Below are positions 42,845 to 62,420 of a stretch of DNA of 64,000 nt, piece after piece. The translations under genes were made by a program, and so were the position numbers. The notes beneath the pieces are model-generated. The model saw nothing but the letters and a program-made list of their open reading frames with translations. It searched no databases and was not told where the DNA came from. This DNA is from Utricularia gibba (taxonomy: Eukaryota; Streptophyta; Magnoliopsida; Lamiales; Lentibulariaceae), in the NCBI GenBank assembly GCA_002189035.1, contig NEEC01000023.1:682001-746000 (forward strand). Direction: 5' to 3'. Each line of letters begins with the position of its first letter. Positions within the stretch are counted from its first letter, which is position 1.

Positions 42845-43459
42845 GTAAAACCATGCCCTTTTCTCGACTTACATGAATCTCCGCTGTCTGTATATAAATC
42901 CTTCATCTTTTTTCTTCAGGCCAGATGCTACCCGAAACATGTATGTTGGCCGAGCCTAAATGGAGGGAGAAACCCTTCTCTTCATCTTTCTCATTCTGGA
43001 CTTGTATTCTTATGCATAATAAAGCTAGTTGAGGTCATCCTTTTTCTCTCCAGTGACCGTGTACTGGTTTCTCCTCGTTGTCTGATACGATATGAATGTA
43101 TGATCATGTGTTACATATCCATTACCCTATAGTTCAGCAAACCTGTTTTTCCAAAATATTGGTTCCAAACCGAACCGGATCCTGGTTTCAGCAGTCGAAC
43201 CGACGTTTATGAGTCCCTTGTTGCCTTCCGGAGGGATTAGCGGGGGAGCCCTTAAACGGAACTATATCACATAACTCCTCCTCTGTTCAGGATCAGAGCT
43301 GCAACCTGAAAGTACAGCGTTTGATTGGTGTGTGAAATTGGGTGGGTGAGTTAGGAGGTGCAATTACTAAAAAGCCCCCACGTGGAGAAATATTACCCAA
43401 TCGGGGATTTTCCTTGTTCATCTTCACCTTTTTTTTTTTGTCAGTACTGAAATCGCACG
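42845..43459. other. Spacer between NDUFB2 and GT14 gene
   Basis: NDUFB2 3' untranslated region (probably with an intron to about 42919) and the upstream region of the glycosyltransferase. CCCCCACGTGG near 43375 is a G-box. Confidence 0.45.
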
Positions 43460-45064
43460 ATGCGCCATCGCCGTCGAGCTTCTGGAGTTACAATTACGTT
43501 ATGCGTTCTTCTGGGCGCTACCCTTTGCTCCTTCCTCAACGCTTTTCCGATCACCAAGCCGCGGCGCGCTGGTGAATTTCGCCCTTCCCTCTTCTCACAA
43601 GGTGCGACCCCAAATGGGGGATCTGTGTCTTCGGCTCCAGCGCCTCCTCCATCCATAGCGTACCTTATTTCAGGATCCGTTAACGACTCGGGTCGAATTT
43701 TTAGGCTTCTTCACTCCATCTACCATCCCAAAAATCAATATTTGCTCCATTTGGATCGTTCTGCTTCCCAGACAGATAGGGAGTCTTTGGCAATCGCTGT
43801 CCAGTCGGTGCCGCTTTTCTGGGCTGTGCAGAATGTCCACGTCGTTGGAAACGCGGATAATGTCTTAGCCGGTGGACCTTCTGCGCTTTCGTCAACGCTC
43901 CACGGGGCATCTCTGTTGCTTCATGTGTCGTCTACTTGGGATTGGTTCATCAACCTCTCCGCTGATTTCTACCCGCTTGTTACTCAAGACGGTAAGCTTG
44001 CTTCTGTAACTGCCAAGTTCTATTTACATACAGACATGTGTCCGCCTGTCGTTTCATTTGACTTCTTTCCCTGTCTCTTGGAGAGCTTTAAACTTCGATG
44101 CAAACGTTTTTGGATTGGTGCCACGCATTTTCAGGAAAATTCATCATCATAGTCTGCTAGAAAAGGGATTAATACACTATAAATCTGCTCTTTAACTTGG
44201 CTTCATCATCTTCCTGTTTCCAGATCTTCTGCACATTCTGTCATATTTACCGAAAGATCTGAATTTTGTTAAGCATTCAAGTTATGTTGGCTGGAGAGAG
44301 TAAGGTTTCTCTGTTCCTTCTGTTTAGAATGGATACCGTGTAGTGCTTGAACTCCTTGTGCCATGATCTTTGCAGATCTCGGAAACTGAAAACAATAATA
44401 GTTGATCCAGCCCTTCATCGTGCAGAGAAGAGCTACACATTCTTTGCAACTGAGAAACGGCCGCTCCCAGATGCTTTTCGCTTGTTCATGGGTCAGTTTT
44501 TAATGACACTCCTCCCAATCCAGCACAGCTTAAACTGATAAACTCTCATAATTTTCTCGTACAGGTTCACCGATGGGGATCCTGAGTCGAAAGTTCATCG
44601 AATATTGTATTATGGGCACAGAGAACTTTCCAAGAACCCTGCTTATGTATCTATCCAACACAGCTTCCTCATCATCTGTCTTCTTCCCCACCGTTCTCTG
44701 CAACTCCCACAGATTCAATCGCACGACCGTCGACCACAGCCTGTATTACACATTATTCGACTCCAAGAAGCAGCCTAACCCACTAAATTCCACCATGTTT
44801 GATGATATCGTGTTGAGTGGAGCAGCTTTCGCTTCACCATTTGCTGCAGACGACCCTGTTCTTGATCTCATTGATAAAGAATTACTGCACAGGCATTCAG
44901 GGAAACCAGTGCCTGGAGGATGGTGTTTGGGTGAATCTGGTGAAAGGGAATGCGACATTTGGGGCGACTCGGAGGTGCTGATGCCGGGCCCCGGAGCTAA
45001 AAGGCTTGAGAGAAGTCTCATCGAAGTTGTATCCAGCCAAGCGGCTCAATGCTCTGACCGATGA
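43460..45064 (+). CDS. Core-2/I-branching (GT14) glycosyltransferase, GlcAT14-like
   Basis: Golgi type II membrane enzyme. Plant GlcAT14 members add glucuronic acid to type II arabinogalactan. Four exons (43460-43991, 44224-44299, 44376-44491, 44565-45064) total 1224 bases, 407 residues. RHRRR followed by TITLCVLLGATLCSFL forms the cytosolic tail and signal anchor; the domain begins PPSIAYLISGS, with HPKNQYLLHLDRSAS, WDWFINLSADFYPLVTQDD, KTIIVDPALH, SRKFIEYCIMGTENFPRTLL, FFPTVLCNSHRFNRTTVDH, DDIVLSGAAFASPF and GGWCLGES near the end. No frame breaks. The exact acceptor is inferred from the family. Confidence 0.9.
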
Positions 45065-55071: not shown

Positions 55072-56947
55072 CTATGATCTTCTCCTCTTTAAGCCCCACC
55101 ATTTCCACCGTTGTTTATCACCTTCATGCGGCCCCATTCGTCTTGCCCTTTCTCTGGCTTCTCTTAGCCGAAATCCAAAGTCTTTCTTCCATGCATCGAA
55201 CTTATGCTTGAGTGTCTGAACTTGCTCCAGAGGCTTTGGAGCAGATGGTGAATGCTTGGCCTCAACGATGGCTTGAGCTTCAAGATCAAAGAGCTGCTTG
55301 TGCTGCTCAAATTCATTAACGAGAGGAGCAACGGAATTCGAAGCAGACGCAGGAGTCTTGCTGTCTCGAAAGAGAATGTCCATGAATCTGACTGGCGAGC
55401 CACATCCTGGTGTCAAAGATCCCATAGATGTCTCTTCGGAATGAGGGGGTGACTGGGCTTCATATATGTGTTTTCGTAGTCCGTTTCCAGGATCCACAGG
55501 ATTCACTTTTGCTGTATCCAGTCTCATCTGCAAAAGCCAAAGAATTGCCTAAACCGGGTTGCAAGAGTTACAGAGGAGGGAAGTGACTTCTCCTACCTGT
55601 AGAAAATCTATCTTCTTTTGCCACATGTCCTCCATGGCCTTCATCTTGGACTCAAGATGACCAACTTGCTCCTTGAGAATTGTAATTTCCTTATCCCTTT
55701 CTCCAAGTGCTGTTTCCGCCATTAACACACGCCTTTGAAGTTCTTCAACAACCCCTGGTGCTGGAGGTGGCACATCCTGCTCCATTCACACAGAAGAAGG
55801 GTATCATTTGGGATGCTGCTTACACCCAAACCTACAATGTAATGGACATTTCTTAGGAATACTAACCTTGAACGGTGGTGCTGCTGGACTCTGTAGGCAA
55901 GCCAAAAGCTGCTGCCTTCTCACCAACCAACCACGAAGTACTGTAAAAGACAACATGGTGAGGGAAACGTTTACCCGATTCCCCAAAGCCGCTGCCTGCT
56001 ACAAGAACCTTACCAGACTGTATAAGCAGCACGGCTGCATCAGGCCGCTGATCACAATGTGACTTGCTACCATCCTCCGGCTTTCTCAAGTTTCGTCGGA
56101 TCTCCCTCCGTGCAATTTCACCGCGCACATCTGCAGAGTATTAGAAAGGATTTCTTCGGTCAAATAAAGGGGTGGACAGAAAGATTTAGCCTGTGATCAC
56201 CCTTACATGATTGCAATGTTGTTACTACTTCCTTCAGGTCATGAAATTCGCAATGTGCGTGAGGGGGAACTCGTCTTTCATCACTCTGTAAAACACCATC
56301 GGAAAGTTTTTGAAACACCGTGGATACGGACAGATCGAGACACAGAGATGATACTAGAAACAAAACAAGACTCCAACCCACTGTGCACAAACCATTAGAC
56401 CACAAACTGAACACTAAATAATGATGCAGATGATGCAAAAACATATGAAACTGGGCGATATTCGTGGCGTAATCTAGAGAAAAGAATCATGAATGTTTAA
56501 TTGTCGACAAAACAACATAGTGAATAGAGATCCAAGGAAAGATGAACGGATTACCAAAGGCCGGCAATATCCATTTTCATGTCTGGAGTCGCCGCCACCC
56601 GTAGCATCACAATCTGTTACTACTACAACTTCCTTCGGAGAAGCATTGGCTTCCTCCTGTGATTCCCCTGTCTCAATTTCCTTAGCCTGAAAACGGAAGA
56701 TACCTTTCTCCCACCCATTGCTCAAATCAGAACCTAATGGCCTCTGAGGAATGTCCGAATTTGCGGGAATGCAGCGCTTGGCAGACGACGGCGGCCGAGC
56801 CCGAGAATTAGGTTTGGGGCGCGCAGGAAGAGATGGGGGGTCGCAATTCTCGGGGTTTTCGAGCAACTTGTCCTTCCGCTGAAGAGACTCCAGCATTTCC
56901 TCCAAGGAACTACGAACGACAGGATTCGCGGAAACCGCAAACATCAT
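55072..56947 (-). CDS. Motorless myosin VIII-like protein (N-terminus, IQ motifs, coiled coil and tail only)
   Basis: Six exons (56555-56947, 56207-56285, 56014-56130, 55867-55940, 55597-55776, 55072-55527) total 1299 bases, 432 residues, in frame throughout. Residues 1-40, MFAVSANPVVRSSLEEMLES and PPSLPARPKPNSRARPPS, match the start of plant myosin VIII. Instead of the SH3 and motor domains, the next exons go straight to TTLQSYVRGEIARREIRRNL and AAVLLIQSVLRGWLVRRQQ (IQ, calmodulin-binding), then the coiled coil EELQRRVLMAETALGERDKE to KAMEDMWQKKIDFLQMRL, and the myosin VIII tail (VNEFEQHKQLFDLEAQAIVE, KFDAWKKDFGFRLREARE, WWGLKRRR). No intron is long enough to hide a motor. It could bind calmodulin and myosin VIII sites at plasma membrane or plasmodesmata without moving. 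Confidence 0.85.
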
Positions 56948-57219
56948 GTCCAGATTCACCAGTTCGCGTCAACGAAATCCCACACCACTTTAAACTGGAA
57001 AAGGCAACAGAAATAGAGAACGGGAACCCCACATGAATGGATTAATGAGCGCTCCCAAAAGGAGCAAAATAAAGAAACTGAGAGCAGCGAAGTGGGGGAG
57101 GAGCATGCCCGCCACCTAAAAGCACAATCTTTGTCGCGTAACACAAGGAAGCAGTGGGGACAGCAACAGCAAACTCAGATCAATCGGACAGCGAAGTGAC
57201 TAAATAAAGAGCAACGAAA

Positions 57220-58000: not shown

Positions 58001-60521
58001 TCACCTGCCTCGTGGGTTTACGAGTTGAGTGAAGACGGCGCTAGTGTCTGCATCTTCACCGAGTAAAGCAGCGTGTCGTTGCTGGGTTTCTTCTTCTTCG
58101 ACTAAACTCACGCCGCTGTTCTCATAAAGGGGGACTCCCATGATGTGATTCGTACTGTCATCGAACTCGTCCCTGTCCTTGAGGGCGGATGATGTCTCCT
58201 CCAGCTGCAGAGCATACTCCAGGTTCCACAGAACGTCTCCCATGGAAGGCCGATCGACGCTCTGATCCGCTAGACATTTCTTAGCCGTCTCCCCGAACTT
58301 CCTCAGAGAAGCTATATTCACTTTGCCGATAAGATTTCTGTCCATGATGTGCTCCAGCATTCCCTTTTTCTCCCAGCTCATTGCCCATTCCGCAATGTTC
58401 ACTTGATCTCTAGGGAGCACAGGGTTCAGAGCAGGCCTCGTGCAGACGACTTCCATCAGGACGACTCCGAATGAGTAGACGTCCGACTTCTCCGTCAGCT
58501 GCTGCCGCCGGAAATACTCGGGATCGAGATAGCCAAAGCTGCCCTTCACAGCAGTGCTTACGTGTGTCTGATCGAGGGACGGCCCTGTCTTCGACAGGCC
58601 GAAATCGGCGACCTTTGCGACAAAGTTTTCGTCCAGGAGGATGTTGGTGGTCTTTACATCACGATGGATGATGCTTTGAGGTCCTCCGGTGTGGAGATAA
58701 TGGAGCCCCGCGCGGCACCAATGCAAATCTCAAGGCGCTGCTTCCACGACAGTGGAGGGAGATCAGTGCCGTACAGATGGCTCCGAAGAGGGCCATTGGC
58801 CATGTACTCGTACACCAGTATCATCTCCAACCGCTCATCGCAATATCCGATGAGCGAAACGAGGTGGCGATGGCGAAGCTTCGACAGCATTTCTATCTCG
58901 GTTCGGAACTCTGCAAGTCCTTGTTCTGACCTTGGATTGCCTCTCTTGACGGCAACCTTCGTGCCACCTTCGATGGTTCCTTTATATACCCTTCCAAAAC
59001 CACCAACGCCAAGAAGCAAGCTTTCGTCGAACTTGTTGGTCGCATCCATTATCTCTTGGAATGTGAAGAAACGACCGAAGCTGGAGGGAGGAGCTGAGGA
59101 GTTGCAGCTCGGGGTGCCGCCCTTCTGTGGAGTGGTTGACATTTTTGTGACAGTGGAGGAGTTCCCATAGAAGGGAAGAGGAAGCCATGAATCCCGATGG
59201 GGCTCCTTAGACCTTCTAACCACTAAGCAAAGGCAACAGAATCCTGCCATCACTAACGCTGTGACAAGAGCCACAAAGGCAACAAGTATGCCCCTACTAG
59301 CGGCCTTGTGTGGCGACTGGAGAATAGCCTCCACAGCCTGAGATCCACTCAAGCTTCTAGCTCCATTGCTGATCTTCATGATCTCCAAACCATTCATGAT
59401 TGCATTGATCGAATCGCTGTTCGTATCCGGCCCAATGCTCACAGTTAGCGCATTTGAGCCAGCTGCAACTTTGGAGACAAAATCTCTGTAATATGGTGTG
59501 TCAAAATTCCCAGCAACATTCGACAAATCCAAGCTCCCAATGGCGATGTCAGTGTTGATGTAAACGTTGAATATCAGATCATTCAGCGATTTGCTCACAA
59601 TGTCACAAAAATGGACTCTCAACAAGTACAAGTAGCCTGGTTCAACAGGCAAGATCCAAGTGATGTTGAAGTTCACATTCACAACATCAGCATCCCCCAT
59701 GGTTTCTGCCGTGGCGTAAATGTAGTTTGGAGCTACTTCAGCTGAAACAGAACCGTATTTTATATCTGACGGATCGACGGAGACATTCACAGCAGCAGTG
59801 TTCATATGTAGATACTTGCCATCATTCTCCCATCTCCTTCCCAAAGTATCATTCTGAGGAGTGATCAAAGGACCCCCATATTCAAACGGTACACAGTCTC
59901 GAGTGCAAGGCTAGAGATTCCATGAAAAGAACCAAATGGAAACACTGTGATTGCCTGGTCAGGAATCAAGCTATTTGGAACAGATACAACTTCAATGGCA
60001 TTAACAAAAGCAGGTGAATTTTCCCCTGGAATGAACACAATAGACAAGGTATTGGAAGTCACGTTGATTGCATACTCCTTAAAAAGGTAAGAATCATTGT
60101 AACTCTGAAAACTGAAGTCGCGCAGAAGCACAAATTTCCCAGCAATAACGCTGATCGAAGAAGAAGACAGATTGTGGCCAGGGATGAGGTAGAAATGAAG
60201 GCGAATCCAATGCCGACCTTGCTGCTGAATATGGAATCTATAGGAAGTTGTGCTTGTAAAAATCCTTGCAGACTCAAGGATAGAATGTGGGGCTGTTGCG
60301 TTAGAAGTAACAGCCATAGAATTCCCTTGGGTCTTCATAGAAAACAAGGATTGGGCTGAATCTGGAGTGTAAATCTGACCAAGAAATGTCACATTTCGTG
60401 AAGATCCACAAGCAAGCAAATAGTTATCAGCAGGAACGAACGCAGCAAAGGATATATTACATTTCAGATAACCAGCGAACAATACGACTACAAGAGCAGG
60501 CGCCCACTTCCCTATTTTCAT
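58001..60521 (-). CDS. THE1: THESEUS1-like receptor kinase (CrRLK1L family), two apparent missing bases
   Basis: Plasma-membrane receptor kinase that monitors cell-wall integrity and binds RALF peptides. Intronless, about 840 residues after repair. Signal peptide from the ATG at 60521 (MKIGKWAPALVVVLFAGYL); two malectin-like domains (PADNYLLACGSSRNVTFLG, GRHWIRLHFYLIPG, FVNAIEVVSVPNSLIPDQ, DTLGRRWENDGKYLH, GYLYLLRVHFCDIVS); membrane segment GILVAFVALVTALVMAGFCC; kinase with GVGGFG, VAVKR, HRDVKTTN, DFGLSKT, GSFGYLDPEYF; and the C-terminal AVFTQLVNPRGR typical of THE1. Frame breaks at 59873-59877 (LNMGGPLITPQND) and 58706-58709 (GAARGLHYLHTGG); one C each on the plus strand restores a length divisible by three. 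Confidence 0.93.
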
Positions 60522-61082
60522 AGCTGCTGGCTCAATCGAGAAAATGAATGACAAGAAAACCCAAAAACATGAGCGCCAAGAAGAGCCCACTACTTCCCAG
60601 ATACAGCTCCCGCTACAGATTGATGCTAAATGCCAGAAACTAAGAAATAACTCCCAGATCTACATTACGGCAATGCTGTTTCGGAGTCATTATACAACTG
60701 CTAACGTATAGCAGCACAGCTCATCGCTGTTCAGAAAAAGGATCGAGCTTTGTAGCAAAAGAAAGCCAGCAATAAAGACCCAAGCGATGAGGTGCATTTG
60801 AGCGCCACTACGTGACACCAACACTAGTATAGATGACCGGAAAACGCGTTTCCGCCATTGAGCAAACTCGTACGGCCGCAAAACCAAACATTTATGATGC
60901 AAACTAAAACCAAACTACCCCACGATCGTGATTAGCTGTCAAAATGCTCAGCAACTGGGAAAGTGAAGTTTGAAGACAAAACAAACAAAAAGAACACTTC
61001 ACTAAAAAAAAAACTGAAACTTCAATCTCCAGAAAGCTAGAGACTTAAATAAAAAAAAAGTCATATCTACCGTTTACAATCA
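60522..61082. promoter_or_regulatory. THE1-like leader and promoter
   Basis: Upstream of the kinase start on the minus strand. No clear motif stands out. Confidence 0.4.
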
Positions 61083-61345: not shown

Positions 61346-62420
61346 TTACAAAACACCCCCTCCAACAGCCCACGCTTCAACCCCAAGACTTGGGCAATTA
61401 GTAATACTGCCCCATAAGGCATCATACGACCCGGCGTAACCATGGGGCAACCCGCCTAACCTCTGATCGCACCAGGCATCGTCTGGGAACCCTGAGATCC
61501 CAACCCCACCTTGATGCTCTGCAGCCATTTCTGAAACTAAAGCGCCCATCGATGACTCATCCAAGTAGCTGCTTCCGGATCCGGATCCGAATCCGAATCG
61601 GTGGTTAAGATGATTCATCTGCAACTTCTCTTCCTCCATGTAGAAGTTCTTGAAAGAGTCCGATGGCCCGTTTCCGCCCATCTGCGGGAGGGAATCGGCA
61701 CCGTCGTCGTACTTGCAGGGTGACGCTAATGCGGTTTCGAAATCGGAAACCGTCTCCTGCTTTCGGGCTGCGGAGTTCTTCTCGTAGATTCTACACAGCA
61801 CCCAATCATCCAACTGCAGACAACGATTAATTATCGTAAGTACACGGTTTGATTCAATTCAATTCGAACTGCGTTTGTCTGGGATCCCTGAATTCTCACC
61901 CTGGCGCTCCCATGCTTCCTCGCCAGATCCGACAATCTGTACTCATGCATGATCCAGTTCGTCTTTACGCCTTTAGGCGCTTTCCCGGTGTAAAAAACCA
62001 GAGCTTTCTTGATCCCAACTTTTCTCCCTTCCATTGTAACCACCTTATCGGTGCCTGTCGCCTTCCAGTAGCCGGATCCAGCTACTCTATTAGGCCGCGA
62101 ACCATTCGGATATTTCCTGTCTCTGGGACTGAAAAAGTACCATTCCTTCTCTCCAAACAAAGCCTTATCTGCAAAAGAAGAGAATTAGAACCAGAAAACC
62201 AGAACAAAAACTACCTTCAATCTGTTCCAGTACAACTAACCTGGGAGATCCCACGGATTGAACTTATACAAATCGATTTCTCCAATTATCTGTAGGGAAA
62301 AATGATGCCCAGAAACCTTCCGGCACAAGTACTGGACCAAAAGCTCCTCATCCGTGGGGTAAAACCGGAACCCCGGGGCAAATGAAGCTTCGATCGTGGA
62401 TCAGATTCTCTTGCAACCAT
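61346..62420 (-). CDS. NAC transcription factor, stress type (ATAF/RD26-like), one apparent missing base
   Basis: Nuclear DNA-binding factor. Exons 62241-62420, 61900-62168 and 61346-61813. The NAC domain subdomains are visible: [20 protein letters not shown] (A), [16 protein letters not shown] (B), [20 protein letters not shown] and [10 protein letters not shown] (C), [19 protein letters not shown] and WIMHEYRL (D), [12 protein letters not shown] (E). The rest is an acidic Gly/Ser-rich activation region. As sequenced exon 1 reads [11 protein letters not shown]; one extra C in the coding strand at the C4G4 tract (62371-62378) restores [15 protein letters not shown], and the length becomes 918 (305 residues). 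Closest by eye to RD26/ANAC019/055/ATAF types, which respond to drought and ABA. Confidence 0.92.

Follow-up and report, generated by a model that had tools for sequence, protein, structure and literature searches.

Can a class VIII myosin do without its motor, and what part might such a protein play? The question is raised by a locus of Utricularia gibba, in a stretch of 64,000 nucleotides on contig C411 (943 kb) that we call the window. The preliminary description of this DNA had proposed that the beginning of a myosin VIII is joined there straight to the neck and tail. Its coordinates, motifs and exon count proved correct: six exons on the reverse strand, between positions 55072 and 56947, join in frame over 1299 nt and encode 432 amino acids (table 1). 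The start, the stop, the frame and ten of the ten splice sites are intact, and every intron is of the GT–AG type. Read from its N-terminus, the protein consists of a MyTH8-like extension, two IQ motifs, a predicted coiled coil and a class VIII tail; the motifs quoted in that description start at residues 13, 155, 193 and 393. The gene may be expressed, and would be spliced into six exons as modelled.

Table 1. Features of the motorless class VIII gene and its upstream region (window positions; exon counterparts refer to the full-length gene).
Feature	Position	Strand	Size or basis
Upstream non-coding block, 80% identical to the corresponding place before the second motorless gene	57061..57173	-	113 bp; copy comparison
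Exon 1, MyTH8-like N-terminal extension, phase 0 end	56555..56947	-	393 nt
SSLEEMLESL motif	56882..56911	-	common to both full-length myosin-2-type genes of the U. gibba genome
Intron 1, occupies the place of introns 1 to 19 of the full-length gene	56286..56554	-	269 nt
Exon 2, counterpart of exon 20; acceptor predicted to lie some codons downstream of the original site	56207..56285	-	79 nt
IQ motif LQSYVRGEIARRE, residues 155-167, split by intron 2	56102..56216	-	Pfam and motif position
Exon 3, counterpart of exon 21	56014..56130	-	117 nt
IQ motif LIQSVLRGWLVRR, residues 193-205, split by intron 3	55915..56026	-	Pfam and motif position
Exon 4, counterpart of exon 22	55867..55940	-	74 nt
Exon 5, predicted coiled coil, counterpart of exon 23	55597..55776	-	180 nt
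Exon 6, class VIII tail, counterpart of exon 24	55072..55527	-	456 nt including stop
WW at residues 424-425 (class VIII WW motif at the C-terminus), with the basic GLKRRRS after it	55096..55101	-	sequence

To which class do these parts belong? Compared with full-length class VIII myosins, the protein gives E-values down to 2.9e-72; this, together with a second gene of identical six-exon layout in the same genome, excludes a chance match. The MyTH8 extension, aligned to full-length relatives, lies within exon 1, and the available text of PMC3850447 describes MyTH8 in class VIII myosins as a single-exon N-terminal domain. The same text gives the WW motif as a class VIII feature; exons 5 and 6 of the window gene supply both a predicted coiled coil and a C-terminal WW, the tail ending RWKWWGLKRRRS. 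In a Pfam scan IQ was the sole family above the cut-off (two stretches, E 1.3e-8); coiled-coil matches were weak and fell below it, and the DIL domain of class XI gave none above it. Class VIII myosins characteristically have three or four IQ motifs, although exceptional cases of one or seven have been recorded. With two, the window protein falls below that range, and the full-length myosin-2-type genes of U. gibba also have two.

If the neck and tail are those of class VIII, could the motor be concealed nearby? The missing stretch measures 713 residues in the Paulownia relative P0019. No intron has room for it, as had been claimed, the largest measuring 269 nt. The Pfam scan detected no PF00063 motor in the window protein, and a comparison with the motor of a full-length relative scored 42, the maximum of 30 shuffled versions being 47. 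A search of the genome with a motor HMM (516 contigs totalling 100,091,633 bases; scores were computed for 65 of the 105 first-look candidates) listed at least 104 exon-level matches; none of these 104 lies on C411 or on C505, the contig of the second motorless gene. The gene model, together with the matches listed in the whole-genome search, rules out a hidden motor exon. The window protein lacks the class VIII motor, the locus contains no motor exon and the remainder reads in frame, as in a headless myosin. The central proposal, a motorless derivative of myosin VIII, was thus borne out.

Is the gene alone in its genome? Searching the genome with the window protein located a second motorless gene at C505:3207538-3209339 (reverse strand), intact, with the same six exons and 408 amino acids; 255 of 399 aligned positions (64%) are identical to the window protein. 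Between 32.6 and 63.7 kb of the window, open reading frames have matches in the same order in the C505 region. Given this collinearity, the two motorless genes go back to a segmental or whole-genome duplication. Grouped by place, the listed motor matches amount to 12 genes. Four of these, spliced against P0019, gave motor-bearing class VIII models: B1 on C414, B2 at 2.07 Mb of C3, A1 at 5.21 Mb of C3 and A2 on C2. The remaining eight are read, from the pattern of their matches, as class XI.

B1 and B2 are of the myosin-2 type, which by the names in the sources is ATM2-like. Their regions are also collinear, in opposite orientation. B2 is one exon short of B1, probably an overlooked micro-exon, and exon 1 is incomplete at its start in the models of A1 and A2. 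IQ motifs number four in A1 and A2, three in P0019 and two in B1 and B2, the motorless copies having the same two as B1 and B2; our labels are independent of the A and B types in PMC3850447, which the IQ count would reverse. The motorless pair shares with B1 and B2 the MyTH8 N-terminus, two IQ motifs, the coiled coil, the WW-ended tail and the phases of the last five introns, but is motorless and has 408-432 residues against the 1152-1173 of the two full-length models. The block upstream of the window gene (table 1) is possibly a 5′ UTR or promoter element; the 900 bases upstream of B1 and B2 contain no match to it beyond 20 nt.

How was the motor removed? The model of B1 comprises 24 exons; intron 1 is of phase 0, and introns 19-23 have phases 0,1,1,0,0. 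The five introns of the window gene have these same phases, 0,1,1,0,0, from which it follows that the gene consists of exon 1 joined to exons 20-24. Because introns 1 and 19 are both of phase 0, their fusion, with loss of exons 2-19, preserves the frame in a single step. The 3′ end of the present intron 1 resembles the old start of exon 20, GVLQ preceding the splice site where relatives have IGVLED or IGALED. An earlier start of exon 2 was set aside, there being no AG directly before the old exon start in the window copy; this and the GVLQ remnant lead us to predict a shifted acceptor. Both motorless models use it, and if this is correct the shift predates the split of the two copies. In the C505 copy (within C505:3204500-3212500) an upstream AG before exon 2 is kept and could add HGGALQ in frame.

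When did this happen? The NG86 synonymous distance is 0.45 for the motorless pair, 0.47 for B1–B2 and 1.10 for A1–A2, and 1.14 and 1.63 for the motorless copies against B1. These distances place the motor loss later than an older duplication and earlier than the latest one. The IQ counts add that one motif was lost earlier than the motor, since P0019 has three whereas B1, B2 and the motorless copies have two. In the tree the motorless pair is sister to B1–B2 (100/99), inside the Lamiales rows, and the segment from IQ to coil is shortened to 40-45 residues in all four, whereas the five other full-length rows shown from Lamiales have 55-56. The gene thus descends from class VIII genes; without the B1–B2 rows the exact sister is less firm, the placement still being among class VIII rows.

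A scheme may be built on this. A myosin-2-type class VIII gene would have been duplicated within the lineage of this plant; one duplicate would have lost exons 2 to 19, and with them the motor, through fusion of the phase-0 introns 1 and 19. The product would be an in-frame gene for the MyTH8 extension, two IQ motifs, the coiled coil and the tail, which a later segmental or whole-genome duplication would have doubled, both copies remaining intact. The protein would dimerize via its coiled coil, its IQ motifs would take calmodulin-like light chains, and where myosin VIII sits, at the plasma membrane or at plasmodesmata, it would be a non-motile anchor, competing with motor-bearing myosin VIII or tethering its partners. 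We consider the scheme as a whole, from duplication, loss of the motor exons by intron fusion and re-duplication to a non-motile, calmodulin-binding anchor, reasonably probable.

What speaks for an anchor? A search for solved structures matching the window protein gave 0 matches. In the AlphaFold model of a motorless relative from Ilex (mean pLDDT 56, pTM 0.23) the long coiled-coil helix is the sole firm part; the helices of neck and tail are weaker, and the N-terminus is mostly unstructured, with one short helix at the SLEEML motif. There is a likeness to the laboratory IQ-tail constructs of ATM1 and ATM2, which have the same motorless neck and tail and form plasma-membrane clusters (PMC2275265 and PMC8750215, available parts). 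According to the latter, the clusters formed by engineered IQ-tail fragments of ATM1 are stable, coincide in part with remorin 6.6 and influence cortical microtubules; the former finds the ATM1 IQ-tail at pit fields and on endosomes, with spots in common with the ATM2 IQ-tail. These constructs are engineered and lack the N-terminal extension present in the window gene, and the one stable ATM1 line had little protein and no significant phenotype (PMC2275265, same excerpts). By analogy with them, a natural gene of such layout would most simply be a passive anchor or competitor.

Might the gene instead act on the remaining full-length myosin VIII as a dominant-negative regulator, and not be an anchor with partners of its own? 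Its retained tail and predicted coiled coil would heterodimerize or compete with the full-length proteins. Over-expressed class VIII tails do cut cell-to-cell virus spread, a dominant-negative effect that the authors attribute to cargo sequestration or non-functional heterodimers (PMC4199776, available text), and the excerpts of PMC2275265 voice the same expectation. However, the tail is just 43-47% identical to those of the U. gibba myosin-2-type genes, so that heterodimers may not form, and the one plant headless transcript of class XI described as tested in the accessible part of PMC3935558 was judged not dominant-negative; there the protein of the short headless transcript from the maize O1 gene, of class XI, was not detectable. 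A dominant-negative role is possible, but we think it rather unlikely, and we keep to the non-motile anchor.

Is the gene maintained, or is it on its way out? Decay had been foreseen as an objection to the proposal. Neither copy has the broken frame or splice sites of a pseudogene. Pairwise NG86 omega is 0.47 for the motorless pair (bootstrap 0.36-0.64) and 0.29 for B1–B2 (0.25-0.34); by region the motorless pair gives 0.46 for the N-terminus, 0.62 for neck and coil (bootstrap up to 1.09) and 0.35 for the tail. In a codon model of the four genes (371 codons) the two motorless tips together have an omega of 0.57, below 1 (p=0.0004) and above that of the full-length B pair (p=0.0096). Internal gaps between the motorless copies point the same way: seven of seven in the coding sequence are multiples of three, against two of seven in the introns. 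We conclude that the pair, taken together, is under selection.

Taken singly, the branches give an omega of 0.41 for the C505 copy (p=0.010 versus 1) and 0.82 for the window copy (p=0.63 versus 1). Relaxation on the window branch, where 1 is not rejected, is thus possible, and the objection is answered only in part, the frame being intact but the omega of this branch indistinguishable from 1. Might the window copy be a recently relaxed, dying duplicate, with function retained by the C505 copy? The difference between the branches would suit this, as would the adjoining receptor-kinase gene, which reads in three broken frames. On the other hand, separate omegas fit no better than one shared by both copies (p=0.24), the start, stop, frame and ten splice sites of the window copy are all intact, and both IQ motifs and the WW end are retained. 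Moreover, when unconstrained substitution was simulated over the length of the window branch (about 0.13 per base; substitutions alone, without indels), a stop-free frame was kept in 3 of 2000 runs, whereas many runs kept one when the change was cut to between a tenth and a seventh (644 of 2000 at 0.02 per base); only a recent release from constraint would therefore fit. A dying window copy seems to us improbable, and a maintained pair remains the preferred reading.

Do other plants have genes like this? Three protein searches were made. The first scored 7992 candidates, with a length filter that shut out full-length myosins, and listed at least 18 matches, 10 of 18 covering at least 90% of the window protein. 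The second (7996 scored, at least 63 listed) added full-length genes and the motorless Ilex protein P0041, and the third (7999 scored, at least 23 listed) six further motorless proteins, P0079 to P0084. No near-identical protein was among the listed matches, and no transcript of the window gene came to light; both count against the scheme. The search for motorless genes elsewhere, suggested in the preliminary description, thus yielded at least 18 similar proteins from other sources, eleven of them asterid and two monocot. Given these proteins and the C505 copy, the window gene is not a single case. The proteins are annotated as myosin-2-like, Myosin V or hypothetical, among other labels, and the named sources are Abeliophyllum, Salvia, Perilla, Apium, Daucus, Ilex, Withania, Impatiens, Dioscorea and Zingiber. 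Two Iris pallida proteins, P0013 and P0016, are class VIII-like and lack both the motor and the IQ motifs; the end of their C-terminal tail is repeated.

Aligned to a full-length protein from which the motor had been excised, 14 of the 18 pass clearly from the end of exon 1 to the start of exon 20. Since this alignment favours such a join, it is the residues and not the gap that carry weight: at the join they are usually K or Q, then IG or near it. Of the other four, P0080 and P0081 show the join less clearly, and P0082 and P0083 weakly. Are these proteins mostly errors of gene models, or exon-skipping isoforms of a normal myosin VIII? Several are known solely as predictions (for example P0002 of Abeliophyllum and P0041 of Ilex), P0006 and P0082 are named ‘isoform X2’, and with introns 1 and 19 both of phase 0 exon skipping would preserve the frame. 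Yet for the window gene and its C505 copy this is unlikely, there being no listed motor match on either contig. Five relatives (P0004, P0008, P0014, P0017 and P0018) lie on contigs that do not exceed 1.36-1.60 kb, as long as a spliced mRNA would be, with an uninterrupted frame of 325-429 amino acids, and the Apiaceae and Lamiaceae motorless rows form diverged clades of their own. We judge it quite unlikely that error or skipping explains most of them. The source code ‘lgn’ we take to denote assembled public reads.

Was the motor lost once or several times? The second search supplied 59 new full-length or partial motor-bearing proteins, 44 of which were used in a first tree and 35 in a 59-row tree; left out were the partial or motor-bearing P0001, P0003, P0007, P0009 and P0012, the neckless Iris pair, and the fragments P0085 and P0086. 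In the 59-row tree, which holds the sister pairing given above, a second Lamiaceae group lies close to the U. gibba genes yet apart from them, a first Salvia group pairs with Sesamum (91/77), and Apiaceae and Ilex fall outside the Lamiales, Solanaceae and Rubiaceae rows (92/83). The rows of Dioscorea, Zingiber, Withania and Impatiens are long, and their placement is unsure. The AU test rejects uniting all 20 motorless rows (p=6e-65), as well as joining the window pair to Lamiaceae group 2 (p=0.002), to Salvia group I (p=0.0004) or to Apiaceae (p=2e-5) and, more weakly, uniting the two Lamiaceae groups (p=0.03); these p values are somewhat optimistic, as the groups were named after a first tree. 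When B1–B2 are removed, the window pair drifts to the side of the Lamiaceae group 2 motorless rows, unsupported (55/0), so that the sister link leans on the B1–B2 rows. In group 2 the segment from IQ to coil is even shorter (of the two rows shown, one has 19 residues and the other 31), the last IQ motif being lost.

With at least four groups separated by the trees and AU tests, motor loss looks recurrent, and at least four independent losses (U. gibba, Salvia I, Lamiaceae 2 and Apiaceae) are likely from these comparisons. One ancient motorless paralogue, ancestral to the window, Lamiaceae, Apiaceae and other motorless proteins and lost elsewhere, would account for their common layout, with its join clear in 14 of 18, and for the unsupported drift just mentioned, but is very unlikely given the AU rejections of the all-20 and pairwise groupings and given that long branches should draw fast motorless rows together, yet the rows remain separate. 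We lean, somewhat beyond an even balance, towards recurrent loss in its fuller form: flowering plants would repeatedly and independently have made motorless class VIII scaffolds by fusing the two phase-0 introns that flank the motor, MyTH8 thus being joined to the neck. The motor would be a removable cassette, and selection would have kept the product as a calmodulin-binding cortical anchor, the natural counterpart of the laboratory IQ-tail constructs.

How does this compare with headless myosins already known? The available text of a survey of 67 plant genomes (PMC3850447) gives two headless types, both of class XI: myosin-11E2, the headless XI-K of Arabidopsis (the XI-K link is from the accessible part of PMC3935558), and myosin-11E4 of Poales. 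These are likewise separate motorless duplicates, and 11E4 retains IQ motifs, coiled coil and tail. They have a DIL tail, however, and 11E4 an N-terminal extension of its own, of 40 residues, whereas in the window gene a class VIII N-terminus is joined to the neck. Headless myosin X of mammals (PMC6345916, in part) is also a natural motorless unconventional myosin, but of an animal class, and an isoform of a gene that makes the motor form as well, while the window gene is a motor-free locus. The preliminary description knew of no class VIII equivalent; nor did our searches of the open-licence literature (headless or motor-lacking class VIII, MyTH8, Utricularia myosin) find a described headless class VIII gene. 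In the parts available, PMC3935558 deals with a headless transcript from a class XI gene, ‘headless’ in PMC4199776 and PMC3203191 refers to over-expressed tails, and the Utricularia myosin of PMC4358910 is a class XI gene. Surveys that require a motor (such as PMC7397272, to judge from its available text) let such genes escape detection.

Natural motorless genes would make it directly testable what myosin VIII does at the cortex and plasmodesmata besides moving. If their origin is recurrent, those parts of myosin VIII that lie outside the motor, among them the little-studied N-terminal extension, would be useful without the generation of force. They would also be a clean example of exon phases permitting the same domain loss repeatedly.

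What surrounds the window gene? At 58001-60659 (reverse strand) a malectin-like receptor kinase, by its domain make-up presumably of the CrRLK1L type, reads in three overlapping stop-free frames, that is, with two frame breaks; it is a pseudogene or reflects assembly indels. The stretch of C505 that surrounds the second motorless gene showed no counterpart of this kinase. We rejected this kinase as a synteny marker, the match on C3 being on the wrong side and better kinase matches lying elsewhere. A NAC-domain exon at 61834-62184 (reverse strand) has 77 matches in the genome, the first being itself and the fourth sharing the strand of B1 and lying some 5.8 kb upstream of that gene; this fourth match, outscored by those on C375 and C412, is a weak hint of an older segmental duplication. 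At 43451-44146 (forward strand), inside the segment collinear with C505, lies an exon of a Core-2/I-branching enzyme.
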